Origin: Deltaproteobacteria bacterium
Lineage (GTDB): Bacteria; SZUA-79; Acidulodesulfobacterales; Acidulodesulfobacteraceae
NCBI GenBank assembly: GCA_023489335.1
Contig: JAMDCP010000007.1
Span: 124,001 to 188,000 of the forward strand
DNA length: 64,000 bases
Direction of reading: 5' to 3'
Each line of letters begins with the position of its first letter. Positions within the stretch are counted from its first letter, which is position 1. The translations under genes were made by a program, and so were the position numbers. Below the pieces are notes generated by a model. That model did not search any database. It saw only the letters and a list, made by a program, of their open reading frames with translations, and had not been told where the DNA came from. Shown here in pieces: positions 2,661 to 13,819 of the stretch.

Positions 2661-3989
2661 TTACATATTCTTGCCATAGTTTATATCTTTTTCCGCAAAT
2701 TCGTTAATATTAGAAGATTCGGCTTCGCTTACCCTGGATATTATGGCTCCAAGATTTGCCAATTTCTTTTCCATTTTTTCGTAGCCTCTGTCTAAATGAT
2801 AAATTCTTGAAACCGCCGTATAACCGTCAGATGAGGCTAACCCTGCTAAAACAAGCGAAGCGCTTGCCCTTAAATCCGTAGCCATAACTTCCGCTCCCGA
2901 AAGCTTTTCCACGCCTTTTACGATGGCAAAATTATTTCTGACTTTTACATTTGCGCCGAGGCGCATAAGCTCGGCAACATGCATAAATCTATTCTCGAAT
3001 ACATTTTCGGATATAACGCAAAGTCCGCTGGAAATTGTCATTAGCGCCATCATTTGAGCCTGCATATCGGTAGGAAAATCAGGATAAGGGGCAGTGGAAA
3101 TATCGACGCTTTTAATGACCTTAGACCCTTTTATTCTTAAAGAAGACGGAGAATTTATAACAATCTTTGCCCCCGCCTCCGAAAGTTTATCGATAACGGC
3201 CTTAAGATGACTTACATTAATCTCTTTAATTGTAATATCCCCCCTTGTTATAGCGGAAGCTACCATAAATGTTCCGGCTTCTATGCGGTCGGGAAGGACT
3301 CTGTGGCTCAGTTTATTTAATTTTTTAACCCCGTTTACGACAATCACGGACGGCTCTGTCCTTTTTATGTCGGCTCCGCCGTTATTTAACGCAAGAATCA
3401 GGTCGTCAATCTCCGGTTCTCTTGCGGCATTGTTTATCACCGTCGTCCCTTCCGCAAGCGATGCCGCCATAACGACATTTTCGGTTCCGGTAACGGATGG
3501 AATAGGAAAATTGATTGTTGCGCCTCTAAGGCGCTCCGCAAAGGCTTCGACATATCCGTGGTCCACCACTATATTAGCTCCCAAAAGTTTAAGGGCATTT
3601 AAATGAAAATCTATGGGCCTTGCTCCAATTGCGCAACCCCCGGGTAAAGAAACCCGCGCCCTCTTATATTTTGCAAGAAGAGGCCCCAAAACCAGCACGG
3701 ATGCCCTCATTGTTTTGACAAGGTCGTAAGGGGCTTCATAATTATTAATATTAGAGGTATTTATGATGACCTTTCCCGTTTCGCCGGATTCTTTAATTTC
3801 GGCGCCGAGGCTTATTAAAAGCTTTTTTATTGTCTTTATATCTTCGAGATCCGGAACATTAAAAATTTCGTTGCCGGCATCGTCGAACATTATGGAAGAA
3901 GCAATTATGGGGAGGGAGGCATTTTTGGAACCGCTTACCTCCACCTCTCCGATTAATGGGATACCGCCCTCAATTATCATTTTGTCCAT
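2661..3989 (-). CDS. murA: UDP-N-acetylglucosamine 1-carboxyvinyltransferase
   Basis: MurA transfers enolpyruvate from PEP to UDP-GlcNAc, the first committed step of peptidoglycan synthesis in the cytoplasm. The length (442 aa) is near the usual 420. The N-terminal SGSKNASLPI block and the catalytic loop LPGGCAIGARPIDFH are present, with the active cysteine at about residue 119. Because this cysteine is kept rather than replaced by Asp, the enzyme is predicted to be fosfomycin-sensitive by family knowledge. It overlaps the end of prmC by 20 bp and lies 15 bp before hisG. Confidence 0.97.
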   Translation of the reverse strand: MDKMIIEGGIPLIGEVEVSGSKNASLPIIASSIMFDDAGNEIFNVPDLEDIKTIKKLLISLGAEIKESGETGKVIINTSNINNYEAPYDLVKTMRASVLVLGPLLAKYKRARVSLPGGCAIGARPIDFHLNALKLLGANIVVDHGYVEAFAERLRGATINFPIPSVTGTENVVMAASLAEGTTVINNAAREPEIDDLILALNNGGADIKRTEPSVIVVNGVKKLNKLSHRVLPDRIEAGTFMVASAITRGDITIKEINVSHLKAVIDKLSEAGAKIVINSPSSLRIKGSKVIKSVDISTAPYPDFPTDMQAQMMALMTISSGLCVISENVFENRFMHVAELMRLGANVKVRNNFAIVKGVEKLSGAEVMATDLRASASLVLAGLASSDGYTAVSRIYHLDRGYEKMEKKLANLGAIISRVSEAESSNINEFAEKDINYGKNM

Positions 3990-5025
3990 ATACTATTTTA
4001 ACCGCCCTGTCCTTTTTATTTAAATCGTTAATAAAAGTAATTTGCTTAAATATTATATCCTTAAATTTTTCATTATATAAATGTTTTATGGCGGACTTTT
4101 CCCTGTAATCAATTTCTAAGATAAGACTTTTCCTCTTTTTAGGTGCCGAAGAGCAGGGATTTTCGGTTGAGGCGGCTAATTCAAATATTTTTCTATAAAA
4201 TTTAAGCCCGTCTTGTCCGCCGTCTAATGCCCTTAAGGGCTCATAAAGCCTGACATCGTCATCTAAGGTTTTTAATTCCCCCGTTTTAATATAAGGCGGG
4301 TTCGATACGATTATGTCAAAATCGTGCATGGCATTATCAAATAACTTAGTATTTGAGACCGGCTCAGCCGGGCATGCAGACTGCTGAACTTTCGTTGAGC
4401 TCCGCTGAACTTGCGTTTCATTAATCCAGTAAATATCAGGCTTTAGCATATTAAAATATGTCAATATAACCTTATCTTCGACGCCGTTAAAAATAATGTT
4501 TTTTTTTGCTGTTTCCAAACTTTTAAAGCTATTATCCGCAGCATAAATTATAACATTACTTGAATTCTTTGCAATAGAAATCGCTATAGCTCCCGACCCC
4601 GTCCCTAAATCTATAACCGATATTTTTCTTTTTAAGTCTTTTTGAAGCCTTTCAATCTCTTTCAACGTCTCTTCGACTAAGCATTCCGTATCGGGCCTGG
4701 GTATTAAAACAGATTTATCGACAAAAAAGGGAATTGAATAAAACTCTTTTTTCTTTACGATATAAGCGTACGGCTCTCCCCGGCTCCTCTTTATAATCAA
4801 CCTTTTAAACAAATTAATATGATTTTTAGCCGGCTTAATATTATAGGAAGTAATAACCCCGTCTAAGGGTTTTTTGAGAACATATCCCATAATAACGGCT
4901 GATTCGTTAAACGGGTTTGAGATATTTTTACTTTTAAGGCTGAGCTCGCCCCATTTAATTAATTTGTAAACCGACAAATCTTTATCTATGTCTATATTAA
5001 AATTATAACTGTTTTTGAGATTCAA
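3970..5025 (-). CDS. prmC: release factor glutamine methyltransferase with in-frame insertion
   Basis: PrmC methylates the glutamine of the GGQ motif in peptide chain release factors using SAM. The SAM-binding segment VIDLGTGSGAIAISIA and the catalytic NPPY motif (VSNPPYIKTG) are clear. It directly follows prfA, its substrate's gene, with a 23 bp overlap, a standard arrangement. At 351 aa it is longer than the usual 280-300 aa. Most of the excess is a segment before FDIIVSNPPY (QVQRSSTKVQQSACPAEP), whose DNA is repeat-like; see the separate repeat feature. The active-site regions on both sides are intact, so the enzyme is likely functional. Confidence 0.93.
   Translation of the reverse strand: MNLKNSYNFNIDIDKDLSVYKLIKWGELSLKSKNISNPFNESAVIMGYVLKKPLDGVITSYNIKPAKNHINLFKRLIIKRSRGEPYAYIVKKKEFYSIPFFVDKSVLIPRPDTECLVEETLKEIERLQKDLKRKISVIDLGTGSGAIAISIAKNSSNVIIYAADNSFKSLETAKKNIIFNGVEDKVILTYFNMLKPDIYWINETQVQRSSTKVQQSACPAEPVSNTKLFDNAMHDFDIIVSNPPYIKTGELKTLDDDVRLYEPLRALDGGQDGLKFYRKIFELAASTENPCSSAPKKRKSLILEIDYREKSAIKHLYNEKFKDIIFKQITFINDLNKKDRAVKIVYGQNDN
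4362..4421. repeat. repeat-like in-frame insertion inside prmC
   Basis: This stretch adds about 20 codons to prmC at a loop between the SAM domain and the NPPY motif. On the plus strand it contains two similar units, ctgctgaactttcgttgag and ccgctgaacttgcgttt, next to the short inverted pair ggctcagcc and the palindrome gcatgc. Base use is more GC-rich than the surrounding gene. It resembles the small palindromic elements that insert in frame in some genomes. The exact borders are my estimate. Confidence 0.4.
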
Positions 5026-9041: not shown

Positions 9042-9146
9042 TTCTTATCAAGAGCGGTAGAGGGACGGGCCCGTCGAAACCGCAGCAACCGATAGCAAGT
9101 GGAAGTCGGTGCTAATTCCCGCAGGTTAATTCCTGGAAGATAAGAA
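9042..9146 (+). ncRNA. SAM-I (S-box) riboswitch
   Basis: The aptamer has the S-box core: agagcggtagagggac, the gggccc segment, gaaaccgcagcaacc, and ggtgctaattcccgc. The P1 stem is formed by ttcttatc at the 5' side and gataagaa at the 3' side. It is followed at once by an intrinsic terminator. By established S-box behaviour, bound SAM stabilises P1 and lets the terminator form, switching the operon off when methionine/SAM is plentiful. Its place before a threonine-synthase-like gene argues that the operon serves sulfur amino acid synthesis. Confidence 0.96.
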
Positions 9147-9157
9147 GAAAAGAGTTT

Positions 9158-9202
9158 AAAAAACCCCTTCTTCTGTAATTCATCCGGAAGAAGGGGTTTT
9201 TT
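9158..9202 (+). terminator. riboswitch-controlled intrinsic terminator
   Basis: A long perfect hairpin, with 5' arm aaaaaaccccttcttc and 3' arm gaagaaggggtttttt, ends in a T run. The gaagaa segment at 9144-9149, which includes the 3' strand of aptamer stem P1, could pair with ttcttc of the terminator's 5' arm to form an antiterminator. This is the usual S-box off-switch layout. Confidence 0.93.
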
Positions 9203-9245: not shown

Positions 9246-10490
9246 ATGTTCGTTAAGGGTTTAAAATGCAGGGAATGCGGCAAAGAATATCCGGATAGCC
9301 CTCTTTATGTTTGCGATTACTGTTTTGGGCCGCTCGAGGTCGATTACGATTATGACGGGATTAAAAAACAAATAAGCATCGACAAGATAAAATCCAGAGA
9401 GCCAAATATGTGGCGTTATCGGGAATTACTGCCTATAAAAGGGGAAATCAAAATCGGCAAAAATGTCGGATATACCCCTCTTGTAAAGGCTGATAATCTT
9501 GCAAGGGAATTGGGCGTTAAGGAGTTATATGTTAAAAACGATGCCGTAAATTTCCCGACATTATCCTTTAAAGACAGGGTTGTGTCCGTTGCGATAGCCA
9601 AAGCGAAAGAATTTGGCTTTAAGGTTGTGGCATGCGCTTCCACGGGAAATCTTGCCAACGCAGTTGCAGCCTTAGCGGCATCGGCAAGCTACGAAAGTTT
9701 TGTATTTATTCCTTCAAACCTTGAAATCGGAAAAGTTTTGGGGACTTTGATTTACGATACCAATTTAGTTAAAATTAACGGGAGTTATGACAAGGTCAAC
9801 AGGCTTTGCACGGAAATTGCAGGAAAACATAACTGGGGTTTTGTCAATATCAATTTAAGGCCATATTACGCCGAGGGTTCAAAATCGCTTACCTTCGAAA
9901 TGCTTGAGCAGCTTGGATTTAAAGCGCCGGATAATGTAGTTGTTCCTATGGCGGGAGGCTCTTTAATTACAAAGGTAGGAAAGGCAATAGACGAATTCGA
10001 ATATTGCGGCCTGTTAAAGGAGAAGCCGCATACTAAAATTTTTGGCGCTCAGGCTGCGGGATGCAATCCGATAACCGCTACCGTTAAAGAAAAAAGAGAA
10101 TTTATCAGGCCGGTTAAAAACCCGAACACGATAGCAAAATCCCTTGCAATAGGCAACCCTGCCGATGGATATTACGCCTCCGACCTTATGAGTAAAACAG
10201 GCGGATACGGCGAAGATGCAACGGATGACGAAATCGTCGAAGGGATGAAGCTTTTAGCTAAAACGGAAGGTATATTTACCGAAACCGCGGGCGGGGTCAC
10301 CGTTGCCGTGGCAAAAAAACTAATAGATAAGGGTTACATCAATAAAAATGAAACTACGGTTCTTGCCATAACGGGCAACGGCTTAAAGACGCTTGAAGCA
10401 ATTAACGGAAAGTTGAAAGAGCCGGCAACTATCGATGCAAATCTGGAAGAATTCGAAAAGGTGCTTGCTAAAATCAGGGGTAAAAGCTAA
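9246..10490 (+). CDS. thrC: threonine synthase-family PLP enzyme, SAM-riboswitch controlled
   Basis: The 414 aa protein is of threonine synthase type. It has an N-terminal zinc-ribbon-like segment (CRECGKEYP, CDYCFGPLE), the PLP-lysine block FPTLSFKDRVVSVA and the phosphate loop CASTGNLANAVAA. Threonine synthase converts O-phosphohomoserine to threonine. The strong Shine-Dalgarno aaggag sits just before the ATG. Control by a SAM riboswitch and an operon of sulfur-carrier genes are odd for a pure threonine enzyme. It may instead make homocysteine from O-phosphohomoserine with sulfur from the carrier encoded next. From sequence alone I can only say ThrC family; the substrate is open. Confidence 0.85.
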   Translation: MFVKGLKCRECGKEYPDSPLYVCDYCFGPLEVDYDYDGIKKQISIDKIKSREPNMWRYRELLPIKGEIKIGKNVGYTPLVKADNLARELGVKELYVKNDAVNFPTLSFKDRVVSVAIAKAKEFGFKVVACASTGNLANAVAALAASASYESFVFIPSNLEIGKVLGTLIYDTNLVKINGSYDKVNRLCTEIAGKHNWGFVNINLRPYYAEGSKSLTFEMLEQLGFKAPDNVVVPMAGGSLITKVGKAIDEFEYCGLLKEKPHTKIFGAQAAGCNPITATVKEKREFIRPVKNPNTIAKSLAIGNPADGYYASDLMSKTGGYGEDATDDEIVEGMKLLAKTEGIFTETAGGVTVAVAKKLIDKGYINKNETTVLAITGNGLKTLEAINGKLKEPATIDANLEEFEKVLAKIRGKS

Positions 10491-10595: not shown

Positions 10596-11111
10596 ATGCC
10601 AGTAAAAGTCAGAATACCAACACCTTTAAGGTCTTTAACAGACGGAACAGCGGAGGTTGAAGCTAACGGTTCAACTATTATCGAAATAATAAACGACCTT
10701 GAAAAAAATTTTGCGGGTATTAAAGAAAGAATATGTGAACAAAATGACCAGGTCAGGAGATTTGTTAATGTTTATCTTAACGATGAGGATATCAGATTTA
10801 TAGACAGCATAAATTCTAAAGTTAAAGACGGGGACACGGTTTCCATAATTCCTGCAATTGCGGGAGGCGCAGCCGAAAAGAAAAAATTTTATCTTAATTA
10901 TCCTCAGGAAGCTATTAAAGAACCGCTGATATATCTTGTCGGTAAAAATTACAATGTTATTACAAATATAAGAAGCGCAAGTATTTCGAATGATATAGGA
11001 ATAATTGCTATAGAGATAGAAGGCGAACCCCGTGAGATAGAAAAAGCCGTCAAATTTTTGGAATCAAAAGGCGTAACGGTGGAGCCCATTGTTCTTGATG
11101 TAGTAGAATAA
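10596..11111 (+). CDS. MoaD/ThiS-like sulfur carrier fused to a NIL domain
   Basis: Residues 1-91 form a ubiquitin-like sulfur carrier of the MoaD/CysO kind, ending in the diglycine IPAIAGG at residues 90-91. The chain does not stop there: residues about 97-171 (FYLNYPQEAIKEPLIYLVGK to KGVTVEPI) resemble the NIL domain known from the C-terminus of the methionine importer MetN. Carriers of this family need a free C-terminal Gly-Gly for adenylation and thiocarboxylation, so the NIL tail must be removed first. The JAMM peptidase gene at the end of the operon is the obvious processing enzyme, as in CysO/Mec systems. An iaggagg ribosome site precedes the ATG. Confidence 0.88.
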   Translation: MPVKVRIPTPLRSLTDGTAEVEANGSTIIEIINDLEKNFAGIKERICEQNDQVRRFVNVYLNDEDIRFIDSINSKVKDGDTVSIIPAIAGGAAEKKKFYLNYPQEAIKEPLIYLVGKNYNVITNIRSASISNDIGIIAIEIEGEPREIEKAVKFLESKGVTVEPIVLDVVE

Positions 11112-11141
11112 GTAATACAAAATTAACGATTTAAATTTATT

Positions 11142-11227
11142 CTGGATTCCCGCTTTTGCGGGAATGACACCCGAAGGGTAAAACTTCAGACACCCATTGA
11201 GTCATTCCTGCGTAAGCAGGAATCCAG
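11142..11227. repeat. intergenic inverted repeat
   Basis: Near-perfect inverted arms ctggattcccgcttttgcgggaatgac and gtcattcctgcgtaagcaggaatccag bracket a short spacer between the carrier gene and the thiF-like gene. Each arm also folds on itself. Repeats of this sequence type are found between genes in many bacteria. If transcribed it would form a stable stem-loop inside the operon mRNA and could affect RNA stability. Confidence 0.8.
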
Positions 11228-11273
11228 TGTTTGATAAGACATAAATAAGCAAATAAGCGGAGGATATAATATT

Positions 11274-12083
11274 TTGGAATTTACCGAAGAACAGATTAAA
11301 AGATATGCAAGACATATAATATTGCCTGAGGTCGGCGGCGAGGGGCAGACAAAATTGCTGTCCTCAAAGGTGTTATTGATCGGAGCGGGAGGGCTCGGCG
11401 CTCCTTGCGGATATTATCTGGGCGCTGCAGGAATCGGAACGCTCGGTATCGTAGATTTCGATACGGTTGACCTGTCCAATCTTCAAAGGCAAATATGGCA
11501 CGGCACGGCAGATGTGGGAAGGTACAAAGTGGACTCTGCAAAAGATTCTATCGCAAGGATTAACCCCGATGTTAATGTCGTAACTTATAAGGACAAGATT
11601 AGTTCGGAAAACATAAAGGACTTAATAAAAGACTATGATGTAATAATAGATGCTACCGATAACTTTCCGACAAGATATTTAATAAACGATGCCTGCTATT
11701 TTATGAAAAAACCCCTTGTTTACGGCTCGATATTCAGATTCGACGGGCAGGCGACGGTATTTCTTCCGGAGGAAGGACCCTGCTATAGATGCCTTTTCCC
11801 CGCCCCCCCGCCGCCCGGCCTTGTTCCAAGCTGCCAGGAGGCAGGTGTTCTTGGGGTTCTACCAGGGGTAATAGGCGCAATTCAGGCAAACGAGGCTATA
11901 AAAATTATTCTTGGCGTAGGAACTACCTTGAACGGCAGGCTTTTAATCTATGATGCATTGGATATGAAATTTAGCGAGATGAAACTTAAGGCAGACAGAA
12001 CCTGTCCGTTATGCGGGGAATCCCCCAGTGTTTTTGACTTAATCGATTATGAAGATTTTTGTGAATTTAGGAGGGAGGATTAA
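11274..12083 (+). CDS. ThiF/MoeB-type adenylyltransferase for the sulfur carrier
   Basis: An E1-like enzyme that adenylates the C-terminal glycine of a sulfur carrier. The nucleotide loop GAGGLGAP is at about residues 37-44, followed by DFDTVDLSNLQRQ with the conserved arginine, and DATDNFPTRYLIND with the catalytic aspartate. Two CxxC pairs (CYRC, CPLC) make the structural zinc site, and PSCQEAGVLG carries the conserved cysteine region. The start is a TTG with ggagga 8 nt upstream. There is no rhodanese domain, so sulfur must come from elsewhere, perhaps via the TusA-like protein encoded next. The likely partner is the carrier-NIL protein just upstream. Confidence 0.92.
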   Translation: MEFTEEQIKRYARHIILPEVGGEGQTKLLSSKVLLIGAGGLGAPCGYYLGAAGIGTLGIVDFDTVDLSNLQRQIWHGTADVGRYKVDSAKDSIARINPDVNVVTYKDKISSENIKDLIKDYDVIIDATDNFPTRYLINDACYFMKKPLVYGSIFRFDGQATVFLPEEGPCYRCLFPAPPPPGLVPSCQEAGVLGVLPGVIGAIQANEAIKIILGVGTTLNGRLLIYDALDMKFSEMKLKADRTCPLCGESPSVFDLIDYEDFCEFRRED

Positions 12084-12087
12084 TTAA

Positions 12088-12336
12088 ATGCCGGAATATA
12101 AAAGCAATAGCGAATTAAATATAAAAGGGGAAATTTGCCCCTTCACATTCGTAAAATCCAAACTTGCTTTAGAAAAGATGAAAAAGGGTGAAATTTTAAG
12201 GGTTATCGTCGATTATGAGCCTGCCATAAGGAACGTCCCACGCTCTATGGAGGAACAGGGCCATAAAGTCCTGTCCATTAATAAAATTAACGATACCGAT
12301 TATGAAATTATCGTCGAAAAAAATGGAAAAAAATAA
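12088..12336 (+). CDS. TusA-family sulfur-transfer protein
   Basis: An 82 aa protein with the SirA/TusA fold signature: ELNIKGEICPFTFVKSKLALEKMKKGEILRV. The cysteine at residue 17 lies at the place of the persulfide-carrying cysteine of TusA, followed by PFT rather than the classic PxP. It begins 4 bp after the ThiF-like gene. By family knowledge such proteins relay sulfane sulfur; here it may donate sulfur to the adenylated carrier. The direct role is inferred from context. Confidence 0.87.
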   Translation: MPEYKSNSELNIKGEICPFTFVKSKLALEKMKKGEILRVIVDYEPAIRNVPRSMEEQGHKVLSINKINDTDYEIIVEKNGKK

Positions 12337-13279
12337 TCCTTATCTGTTTAGTTCCTTATCGAATATCGGCGGTACAGGTGCGGTTTTGCTGAACAAAATA
12401 ATTAATCCTGGGACGGGTTCTAAATTATACGCAAAATTAGAAGGGCTTAATCCGGGCGGTTCCGTCAAAGACAGGCCCGCATTATATATGCTCAAAAATG
12501 CTCTTGAAAAGGGGCTTTTAAAAGACAAGATGACCATAATAGATTCTTCTTCGGGCAATACCGGAATTTCTTATGCTATGCTCGGCGCATTTTTGGGAAT
12601 TAAGGTTAAAATTTACGCTCCAACGAACATGAGCGAGGAAAGAAAAAAGGTTATGCAGCTTTTTGGAGCGGAATTACTACTCACCCCTGCGGAAGAAAGT
12701 CATGACGGCGCCATAAAAAGGTCGATGGAAGAATATCAGCGGGGCGGCAAAGATTTATACTATATGCCAGACCAGTATAATAACCCGTTTAATCCTATTG
12801 CCCATTACGAAACTACGGCGGTAGAACTGCTCAAACAAACAGGCGGAAATATCGATTATTTCGCTACCGGCATCGGCACGGGCGGAACGATATTAGGCGT
12901 AGGGAAAAGGCTTAAGGAATATAACGATAAAATTAAGGTTATAGCAATAGTTCCAGATAGCGAAATGCACGGTATTGAGGGCTGGAAATATAACTATTCA
13001 TTTAATTTCGGTGGTTTTAACCATAATAAAATTATAGACGATTTTATAAAGGTCGATACGGAAGGCAGTTATGCGATGCTTAAAAGGCTCATTAAAGAGG
13101 AAGGTCTTTTAAGCGGATTTTCTTCGGGAGCCAATGTGTATGGCATCTATAAACTTGCCGGCAAATACAGAGGGAATTTTGCGACGGTATTGCCCGACAC
13201 CGGTTCAAGATACCTTTCTACAAGAGTTTTTGCCGATTTAATTCCCCTTTTTTCAAAAGGGGTGGCAGTCCGCCTTTAG
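12323..13279 (+). CDS. cysteine synthase family PLP enzyme
   Basis: A CysK/CysM-type beta-replacement enzyme. The PLP lysine lies in GLNPGGSVKDRPALY and the substrate loop in DSSSGNTGISYAM; GTGIGTGGTILGVG binds the PLP phosphate. Activated serine (O-acetyl- or O-phosphoserine) is the expected acceptor. With a thiocarboxylate carrier and a JAMM peptidase next to it, the closest known parallel is mycobacterial CysM using CysO. Two starts are possible (ATG at 12302 or 12323), both overlapping the TusA-like gene and neither with a clear ribosome site. The last dozen or so codons fall inside a dispersed repeat, which also supplies the stop. Confidence 0.9.
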   Translation: MEKNNPYLFSSLSNIGGTGAVLLNKIINPGTGSKLYAKLEGLNPGGSVKDRPALYMLKNALEKGLLKDKMTIIDSSSGNTGISYAMLGAFLGIKVKIYAPTNMSEERKKVMQLFGAELLLTPAEESHDGAIKRSMEEYQRGGKDLYYMPDQYNNPFNPIAHYETTAVELLKQTGGNIDYFATGIGTGGTILGVGKRLKEYNDKIKVIAIVPDSEMHGIEGWKYNYSFNFGGFNHNKIIDDFIKVDTEGSYAMLKRLIKEEGLLSGFSSGANVYGIYKLAGKYRGNFATVLPDTGSRYLSTRVFADLIPLFSKGVAVRL

Positions 13280-13387: not shown

Positions 13388-13819
13388 ATGGCTATAATAA
13401 TTCCAAAAACCGAACTTGAAATTATAAAAAAACACGTCGCAGAAATTTTTCCGTACGAAGCATGCGGTGGGCTTTTAGGAAGGATCGATAGAGAGGATAA
13501 AGTAATCGTAAGGGTTTATCCAGCCGAAAACCGCTTTGGAAAAATAGCATGGGATAGTTTTGAAATAGAGCCAAAAGATATGCTTGAAATGGATAAAATT
13601 TCAAGAAAGGAAAATCTGGAAATTTTAGGCTTTTATCATTCGCATCCAAACCACCCTGCGATACCGTCAAATTTTGACATAAACGCCTCCTGGCCATATT
13701 ATTCTTATGTGATACTTTCGGTAAAAGGCAACAGCCCCGAAAATGTAGTAGATATTAAAAGCTATCTGATGCCTGATAAAAATTCGGCTCCGGTTTCGGA
13801 AGATGTGGTGATTGACTGA
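13388..13819 (+). CDS. JAMM/MPN+ metallopeptidase for carrier processing
   Basis: A zinc peptidase of the JAMM family. The full motif is present: Glu at residue 24 (FPYEACGGLLG), then HSHPNHPAIPSNFD with His84, His86, Ser94 and Asp97. Such peptidases remove residues after the Gly-Gly of ubiquitin-like carriers (Mec for CysO) or free the amino acid product from it. Here the likely substrates are the carrier-NIL protein, to release the NIL tail, and/or aminoacyl-carrier adducts. It is the last gene of the sulfur operon, separated from the previous gene by a repeat. Confidence 0.92.
   Translation: MAIIIPKTELEIIKKHVAEIFPYEACGGLLGRIDREDKVIVRVYPAENRFGKIAWDSFEIEPKDMLEMDKISRKENLEILGFYHSHPNHPAIPSNFDINASWPYYSYVILSVKGNSPENVVDIKSYLMPDKNSAPVSEDVVID

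Follow-up and report, generated by a model that had tools for sequence, protein, structure and literature searches.

Gene content of the operon

The window, a 64,000-nucleotide stretch of a genome assigned to a Deltaproteobacteria bacterium, contains an operon of six genes on the plus strand behind a SAM riboswitch. The aptamer (S-box; 9042–9146) forms the operon leader and matches Rfam RF00162 with 88.5 bits (E 1.1e-19). It is followed by a putative riboswitch terminator (9160–9202), which was read from the sequence and comprises a 14-bp stem (AAAACCCCTTCTTC/GAAGAAGGGGTTTT) and a T-run; its loop exceeds the length allowed by the hairpin pattern scan. The first gene (metM-like; 9246–10490) encodes a ThrC-like PLP enzyme (PALP, E 3.2e-67), a threonine-synthase paralogue that is predicted to be an O-phosphohomoserine-dependent homocysteine synthase. 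The second gene, metO-NIL (10596–11111), encodes a 171-residue protein in which a sulfur carrier is joined to a NIL domain. The remaining four genes encode a MoeB/ThiF-like E1 without a rhodanese domain (11274–12083; ThiF, E 1.1e-86, and MoeB-type models), which is predicted to adenylate the carrier; a TusA/YedF-like sulfurtransferase (12088–12336; TusA, E 1e-21), the probable sulfur donor; a CysM-like O-acetyl/phosphoserine sulfhydrylase (12302–13279), which matches TIGR01136 and TIGR01138 below their cut-offs and cysteine synthases of the PDB with E 1e-59, and which may share the MetO carrier; and a JAMM/Prok-JAB metallopeptidase (13388–13819; Prok-JAB, E 3e-20). The JAMM product has 143 residues with an intact HxHx7SxxD metal motif (HSHPNHPAIPSNFD), and it is the predicted cutter of both the carrier–NIL precursor and carrier conjugates. 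The riboswitch and the JAMM peptidase named in the original prediction are thus real, and the riboswitch belongs to the SAM class.

A palindromic element of ~90 bp (CTGGATTCCCGC...GCGGGAATGAC / GTCATTCCTGC...GCAGGAATCCAG) lies at 11140–11231, between metO-NIL and moeB. Its RNA fold has an energy of −51 kcal/mol (z −5.7), and its left arm is absent from all other fetched loci. This element is probably a recent small mobile repeat within the operon. Elsewhere in the window, a prmC-like ORF (3970–5025) bears an odd, insertion-like stretch, NETQVQRSSTKVQQSACPAEPVSNTKLFDNAMHDFD, ahead of its NPPY motif.

Architecture of the carrier–NIL protein

The N-terminal part of the metO-NIL product (residues 1–91; 10596–10868) is a sulfur carrier of the ThiS/MoaD type. 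The Pfam ThiS match extends over residues 5–91 (E 8.7e-15) and covers the complete domain (profile 1–76 of 76), with Gly90-Gly91 (codons 10863–10868) in the final two profile columns. The closest solved structures are CysO of Amycolatopsis and of Mycobacterium, and the carrier Gly-Gly aligns with the C-terminal Gly-Gly of both proteins. No second match to the carrier was found within the window's genome. As translated, the Gly-Gly of this protein is not terminal, and 80 residues lie beyond it.

These 80 residues (92–171; 10869–11108) constitute a NIL domain that resembles the C2 domain of MetN and ends in a tail of the type VEPI..(V/I)(V/I)E. The Pfam NIL match (PF09383) covers residues 100–163 (E 7.7e-13; profile 5–72 of 73). 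Modelled alone, the region adopts a beta-alpha-beta-beta-alpha-beta fold with confidence (pLDDT 89.4), and its best 11 fold matches in the PDB, which include 3tui, 3dhx, 3dhw, 2qsw and 3ced, are all NIL/C2 domains of MetN-type transporters (E 2e-5 to 4e-4; TM 0.70–0.79). The Pfam, model and fold results together confirm the original prediction that the Gly-Gly at residues 90–91 is followed by a full NIL domain. In the full-length model, residues 88–105 have pLDDT values below 50, and the two domains take no fixed arrangement (pTM 0.52), suggesting that the junction, where cleavage after Gly91 is predicted, is most likely flexible and accessible to a protease.

Asn124 of the NIL domain (codon 10965–10967) aligns with the methionine-binding Asn295 of E. 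coli MetN, and the N295A substitution in that protein raises the inhibition constant of L-Met 28-fold (PMC12357092). Binding of methionine or homocysteine by the NIL domain is plausible given this alignment. The Asn does not prove methionine binding, since it belongs to the 'NIL' motif, the signature of the whole NIL family, and is expected in NIL domains with other roles.

Two other accounts of the gene were rejected. No ATG, GTG or TTG lies at a usable distance past the Gly-Gly, which argues against an internal start for the NIL part. An assembly error is ruled out because the same open frame recurs in nearly all relatives of the family and in three unrelated lineages.

The operon and the MetM/MetO route to homocysteine

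Profile models label the first gene of the operon as threonine synthase. This role was rejected because the window's genome has a separate canonical ThrC, which adjoins homoserine dehydrogenase (G000:C3:208527-210449), and because the operon copy groups with MetM. The operon enzyme shares 36% identity with its own canonical ThrC versus 52% with Streptomyces MetM, whose gene lies under a SAM riboswitch and adjoins a 91-residue carrier with a Gly-Gly end. In the tree, the MetM clade, including the operon copy, is separated from canonical ThrC with support of 99/97, and ~19 alignment positions that are invariant across this clade differ in every ThrC compared. Because the first gene groups with Streptomyces MetM, the fused carrier is a MetO. 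A SAM riboswitch precedes metM not only in the window but also in 12 related loci, Streptomyces among them. By sequence, the operon is therefore assigned to the MetM/MetO homocysteine pathway, a point missing from the original prediction. Among the Streptomyces matches, those of the L042 type were rejected as MetO; they sit in a CysO/CysM/Mec cluster, and the true Streptomyces MetM/MetO pair is at L173. MetM reportedly uses O-phosphohomoserine and the MetO thiocarboxylate to form homocysteine (chemistry attributed to the Hasebe study of 2024). In the account given in PMC12172450 of Hasebe et al. (2024), metM and metO of S. albulus, with a SAM riboswitch, form a homocysteine route.

Other homocysteine enzymes were sought in the same genomes. 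No genuine Cys_Met_Meta_PP enzyme (PF01053; MetB/MetY-type) was found in the window's genome or in the well-assembled relatives G002, G004 and G016, where the best partial matches score 17–33 bits, compared with 280–500 bits in genomes that have a true enzyme. HcyBio/DUF39 (PF01837) is absent from all 12 genomes searched. The Mariprofundus genomes G061 and G062, as well as G042 and G048, likewise lack these enzymes. The absence of both enzyme types makes MetM/MetO the only recognised homocysteine route, as judged from gene content, in the window's genome and its three relatives. The Met_synt_B12 domain of MetH reactivation was not found in six genomes (the window's genome, G002, G004, G016, G042 and G048).

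Fused, split and NIL-less forms

The carrier–NIL fusion occurs in at least four lineages: the family of the window, where nearly all relatives have it; G042; the phylum of G048, with eight of nine genomes; and G057 with its sister. Gly-Gly is present in all 31 distinct fused proteins, which were collected without requiring the Gly-Gly motif, and the residues that follow it are variable. The NIL Asn is equally constant (31 of 31 fusions and 9 of 9 other NIL frames), and the distance from Gly-Gly to the first NIL strand is 6–10 residues in every fusion. Within the family of the window, the NIL part and the carrier evolve equally slowly, with median dN/dS values of 0.030 and 0.034, respectively.

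A split form, in which the carrier gene is followed by a NIL gene, was observed in Mariprofundaceae (L009, L016, L022, L032, L034 and L037), in a genome of Chloroflexi UBA10874 (L010) and in G059 (L104). The carriers of the split form end 1–3 residues past the Gly-Gly, so the terminal state of Gly-Gly is a variable trait of the MetM/MetO group. The separate NIL proteins encoded directly downstream of the carrier in Mariprofundaceae and Chloroflexi have 79–80 residues; separate NILs share 41–46% identity with the NIL domain of the window and have the same type of tail, VEPI..(V/I)(V/I)E. In Planctomycetota, Kiritimatiellota, KSB1, G034 and Streptomyces, MetM and MetO occur with no adjacent NIL. 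At least six changes among the fused, split and NIL-less states are required on the MetM tree; several of the comparison loci are short. The separate NIL genes indicate that attachment to the carrier is dispensable, and the NIL-less loci indicate that NIL is not essential to MetM–MetO chemistry. Because all three forms occur, NIL is, by this comparison of sequences, an accessory of the pathway, and it works whether or not it is covalently bound to the carrier.

Predicted cleavage of the precursor by the JAMM peptidase

A free C-terminal Gly-Gly is needed for adenylation, as established for ThiS, MoaD and ubiquitin. Two carriers with a buried Gly-Gly provide precedents: MoaX of M. tuberculosis requires cleavage at the Gly82–Ser83 bond (PMC4326299), and MoaD-MoaE of Deinococcus is cut by a JAMM protein (PMC8832034). 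The buried Gly-Gly of metO-NIL and these precedents support the original claim that the carrier must be cut to work, which we infer by analogy. A single Prok-JAB gene occurs in the window's genome, and it lies within the metO-NIL operon. Each of the four fused lineages has a JAMM gene near the fusion; in most members of the window's family, this gene belongs to the operon. In G042 and G048 it is immediately upstream and overlaps or touches the start of metO-NIL, and it lies ~3 kb away in G057, where the nearby JAMM is diverged, and ~8 kb away in G004. The split and NIL-less loci examined, some of which are short, yielded no JAMM gene, although those genomes have JAMM genes elsewhere. The lone Prok-JAB gene in the operon, the proximity of JAMM to fused loci and the MoaX and MoaD-MoaE precedents make it likely that the operon JAMM cuts metO-NIL.

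The cut could be made differently. Mec+ releases cysteine from CysO-cysteine, and a JAMM of this kind might merely free cysteine or homocysteine bound to the carrier, while some other protease cuts the precursor. The solved relatives of the JAMM (2kcq, 2kks and 5lda) do not separate the two roles, and the protease of MoaX in M. tuberculosis is not identified (PMC4326299). We nevertheless consider this division of labour rather unlikely: the genome's lone Prok-JAB gene sits in the operon, JAMM adjacency tracks the fused form, and the Deinococcus JAMM does cut MoaD-MoaE (PMC8832034). That no cleavage takes place, the fusion being no sulfur carrier and its Gly-Gly a relic, is very improbable. Gly-Gly is retained in all 31 fusions and four lineages although the following residues vary, genes for E1, TusA and JAMM adjoin metO-NIL, and the genome offers neither a second carrier match nor another recognised homocysteine route.

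A proposed role for the freed NIL domain

We consider it fairly likely that a MetO-type carrier is made as a precursor with a C-terminal NIL protein, that JAMM splits the two, and that the carrier then feeds MetM while NIL acts in trans. One gene would thus probably give rise to both a sulfur carrier and a second protein, a possible regulator. The analysis shows the architecture, its conservation, the split-gene orthologues, the identity of MetM by phylogeny, the absence of other homocysteine routes and the riboswitch; the steps from the JAMM cut onward are inferred. When SAM is low, the riboswitch would permit reading of the operon. A cut after Gly91 by the operon JAMM would expose the Gly-Gly as the end of the carrier and set free the 80 residues of NIL as a protein of their own. 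The MoeB-like E1 would adenylate the carrier, and TusA-type sulfur would convert its end into a thiocarboxylate. MetM would then form homocysteine from carrier-COSH and O-phosphohomoserine, and the CysM-like enzyme may use the carrier for cysteine. In the last step, which is the weakest, NIL would act in trans and adjust or assist MetM, most probably as a small ACT-like subunit with methionine or homocysteine as its ligand.

What NIL does can be read in several ways. The original prediction raised the possibility that methionine, once bound to the NIL part of the intact precursor, controls JAMM cleavage by blocking or permitting it, which would place feedback on the supply of active carrier. 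In every fusion, 6–10 residues separate the Gly-Gly from the first NIL strand, the methionine-binding Asn is conserved, and the JAMM gene is coupled to metO-NIL in G042 and G048, all of which would suit such gating. However, NIL is separate in Mariprofundaceae, Chloroflexi and G059, where gating in cis is impossible; the junction is predicted to be flexible with no fixed domain arrangement (pTM 0.52); and a precursor is a one-way store, a poor point for continuous control. Gating of cleavage is therefore improbable, and it is the least economical account, given that other lineages make the orthologous NIL as a protein of its own from the outset. Protein-level methionine feedback in general is possible, given the conserved residue and the fold.

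A NIL protein that acts in trans, either as a sensor or as a partner, fits all lineages. As a sensor, the freed NIL could be a regulatory subunit of MetM that binds methionine or homocysteine, in effect a detached ACT-like domain made 1:1 with the carrier from one JAMM-processed polyprotein, and its control would be added to that of the SAM riboswitch; we put this forward tentatively. The small subunit of acetohydroxyacid synthase is comparable to such a detached regulator. No more probable, in our estimate, is a NIL that senses nothing and serves as a working partner of MetM or of the carrier in docking or in handling substrate or product, with the fusion providing equal amounts. Beyond the Pfam domain, the conserved C-terminal tail VEPIE..V(I/V)EG points to an interaction site; MoaD-MoaE is a precedent for a carrier fused to its partner; and the unrelated DUF39 homocysteine pathway requires NIL-ferredoxin as a partner (PMC5764234). 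MetM–MetO operons without NIL, on the other hand, restrict such a partner to an accessory at most.

Relation to known systems

The operon shares with Streptomyces MetM/MetO an enzyme of the MetM clade beside a carrier, a SAM riboswitch ahead of them and the absence of the canonical homocysteine enzymes. Streptomyces MetO has a free Gly-Gly end and no NIL, whereas the Gly-Gly of the window is buried by NIL, and the operon of the window also holds the E1, TusA, CysM-like and JAMM genes. A carrier fused to NIL is undescribed in the open-access literature searched, and the layout is in that sense new; the primary MetM/MetO paper may mention NIL genes. The carrier pathway itself was already described in 2024.

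Both CysO/CysM/Mec+ of M. tuberculosis and HcyS/HcyD/HcyF of Wolinella combine a carrier, an E1, a PLP enzyme and a JAMM, as the operon does, but neither carrier is known to have a NIL. In Wolinella, the JAMM removes an extra residue after the Gly-Gly, and the PLP enzyme is MetY, which is absent from the window's genome. MoaX and the Deinococcus MoaD-MoaE (DR2607) resemble metO-NIL in having a buried Gly-Gly and a downstream domain, and their activity requires a cut after the Gly-Gly, made by JAMM in Deinococcus. Their downstream domain is MoaE and their product is molybdopterin, in contrast to NIL and homocysteine in the window. The NIL/C2 domain of MetN in E. coli MetNI has the same fold and methionine-binding Asn; unlike it, the NIL of this group has no ABC ATPase and is either fused to a sulfur carrier or encoded next to one. 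NIL-ferredoxin and DUF39 of methanogens and Desulfovibrio (PMC5764234) also tie a NIL protein to homocysteine synthesis, but the NIL of the window has no ferredoxin part and its genome has no DUF39 enzyme. The finding joins the MetM/MetO route of 2024, the NIL domain, which also serves in the DUF39/NIL-ferredoxin pathway, and the maturation of ubiquitin-like carriers by JAMM proteins. With its fused and split forms, the group offers a direct and cheap test system, which consists of the 171-residue protein, the 143-residue JAMM and the 79–80-residue NIL of Mariprofundus.

Further unusual arrangements of carriers and sulfur donors were observed among the comparison loci. The Mariprofundaceae cluster (L022:10702-13062 and L037:10549-12888) continues with a sulfite reductase that bears a C-terminal TusA domain; in L022 the fusion matches Pfam NIR_SIR and TusA, so that the enzyme that makes sulfide and the probable sulfur donor of the carrier form one protein. 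In Kiritimatiellae (L165:1-1432), a ThiS-type carrier and a MoeB-type E1 share one 477-residue frame beside CysM and JAMM, another carrier without a chain of its own. Some Streptomyces CysO-like carriers (L030, L018, L017, L027 and L076) carry ~20 residues past the Gly-Gly, for example GGSAAAKPRPVGVAAGRRAGMA, suggesting that removable tails of greater length may be common.
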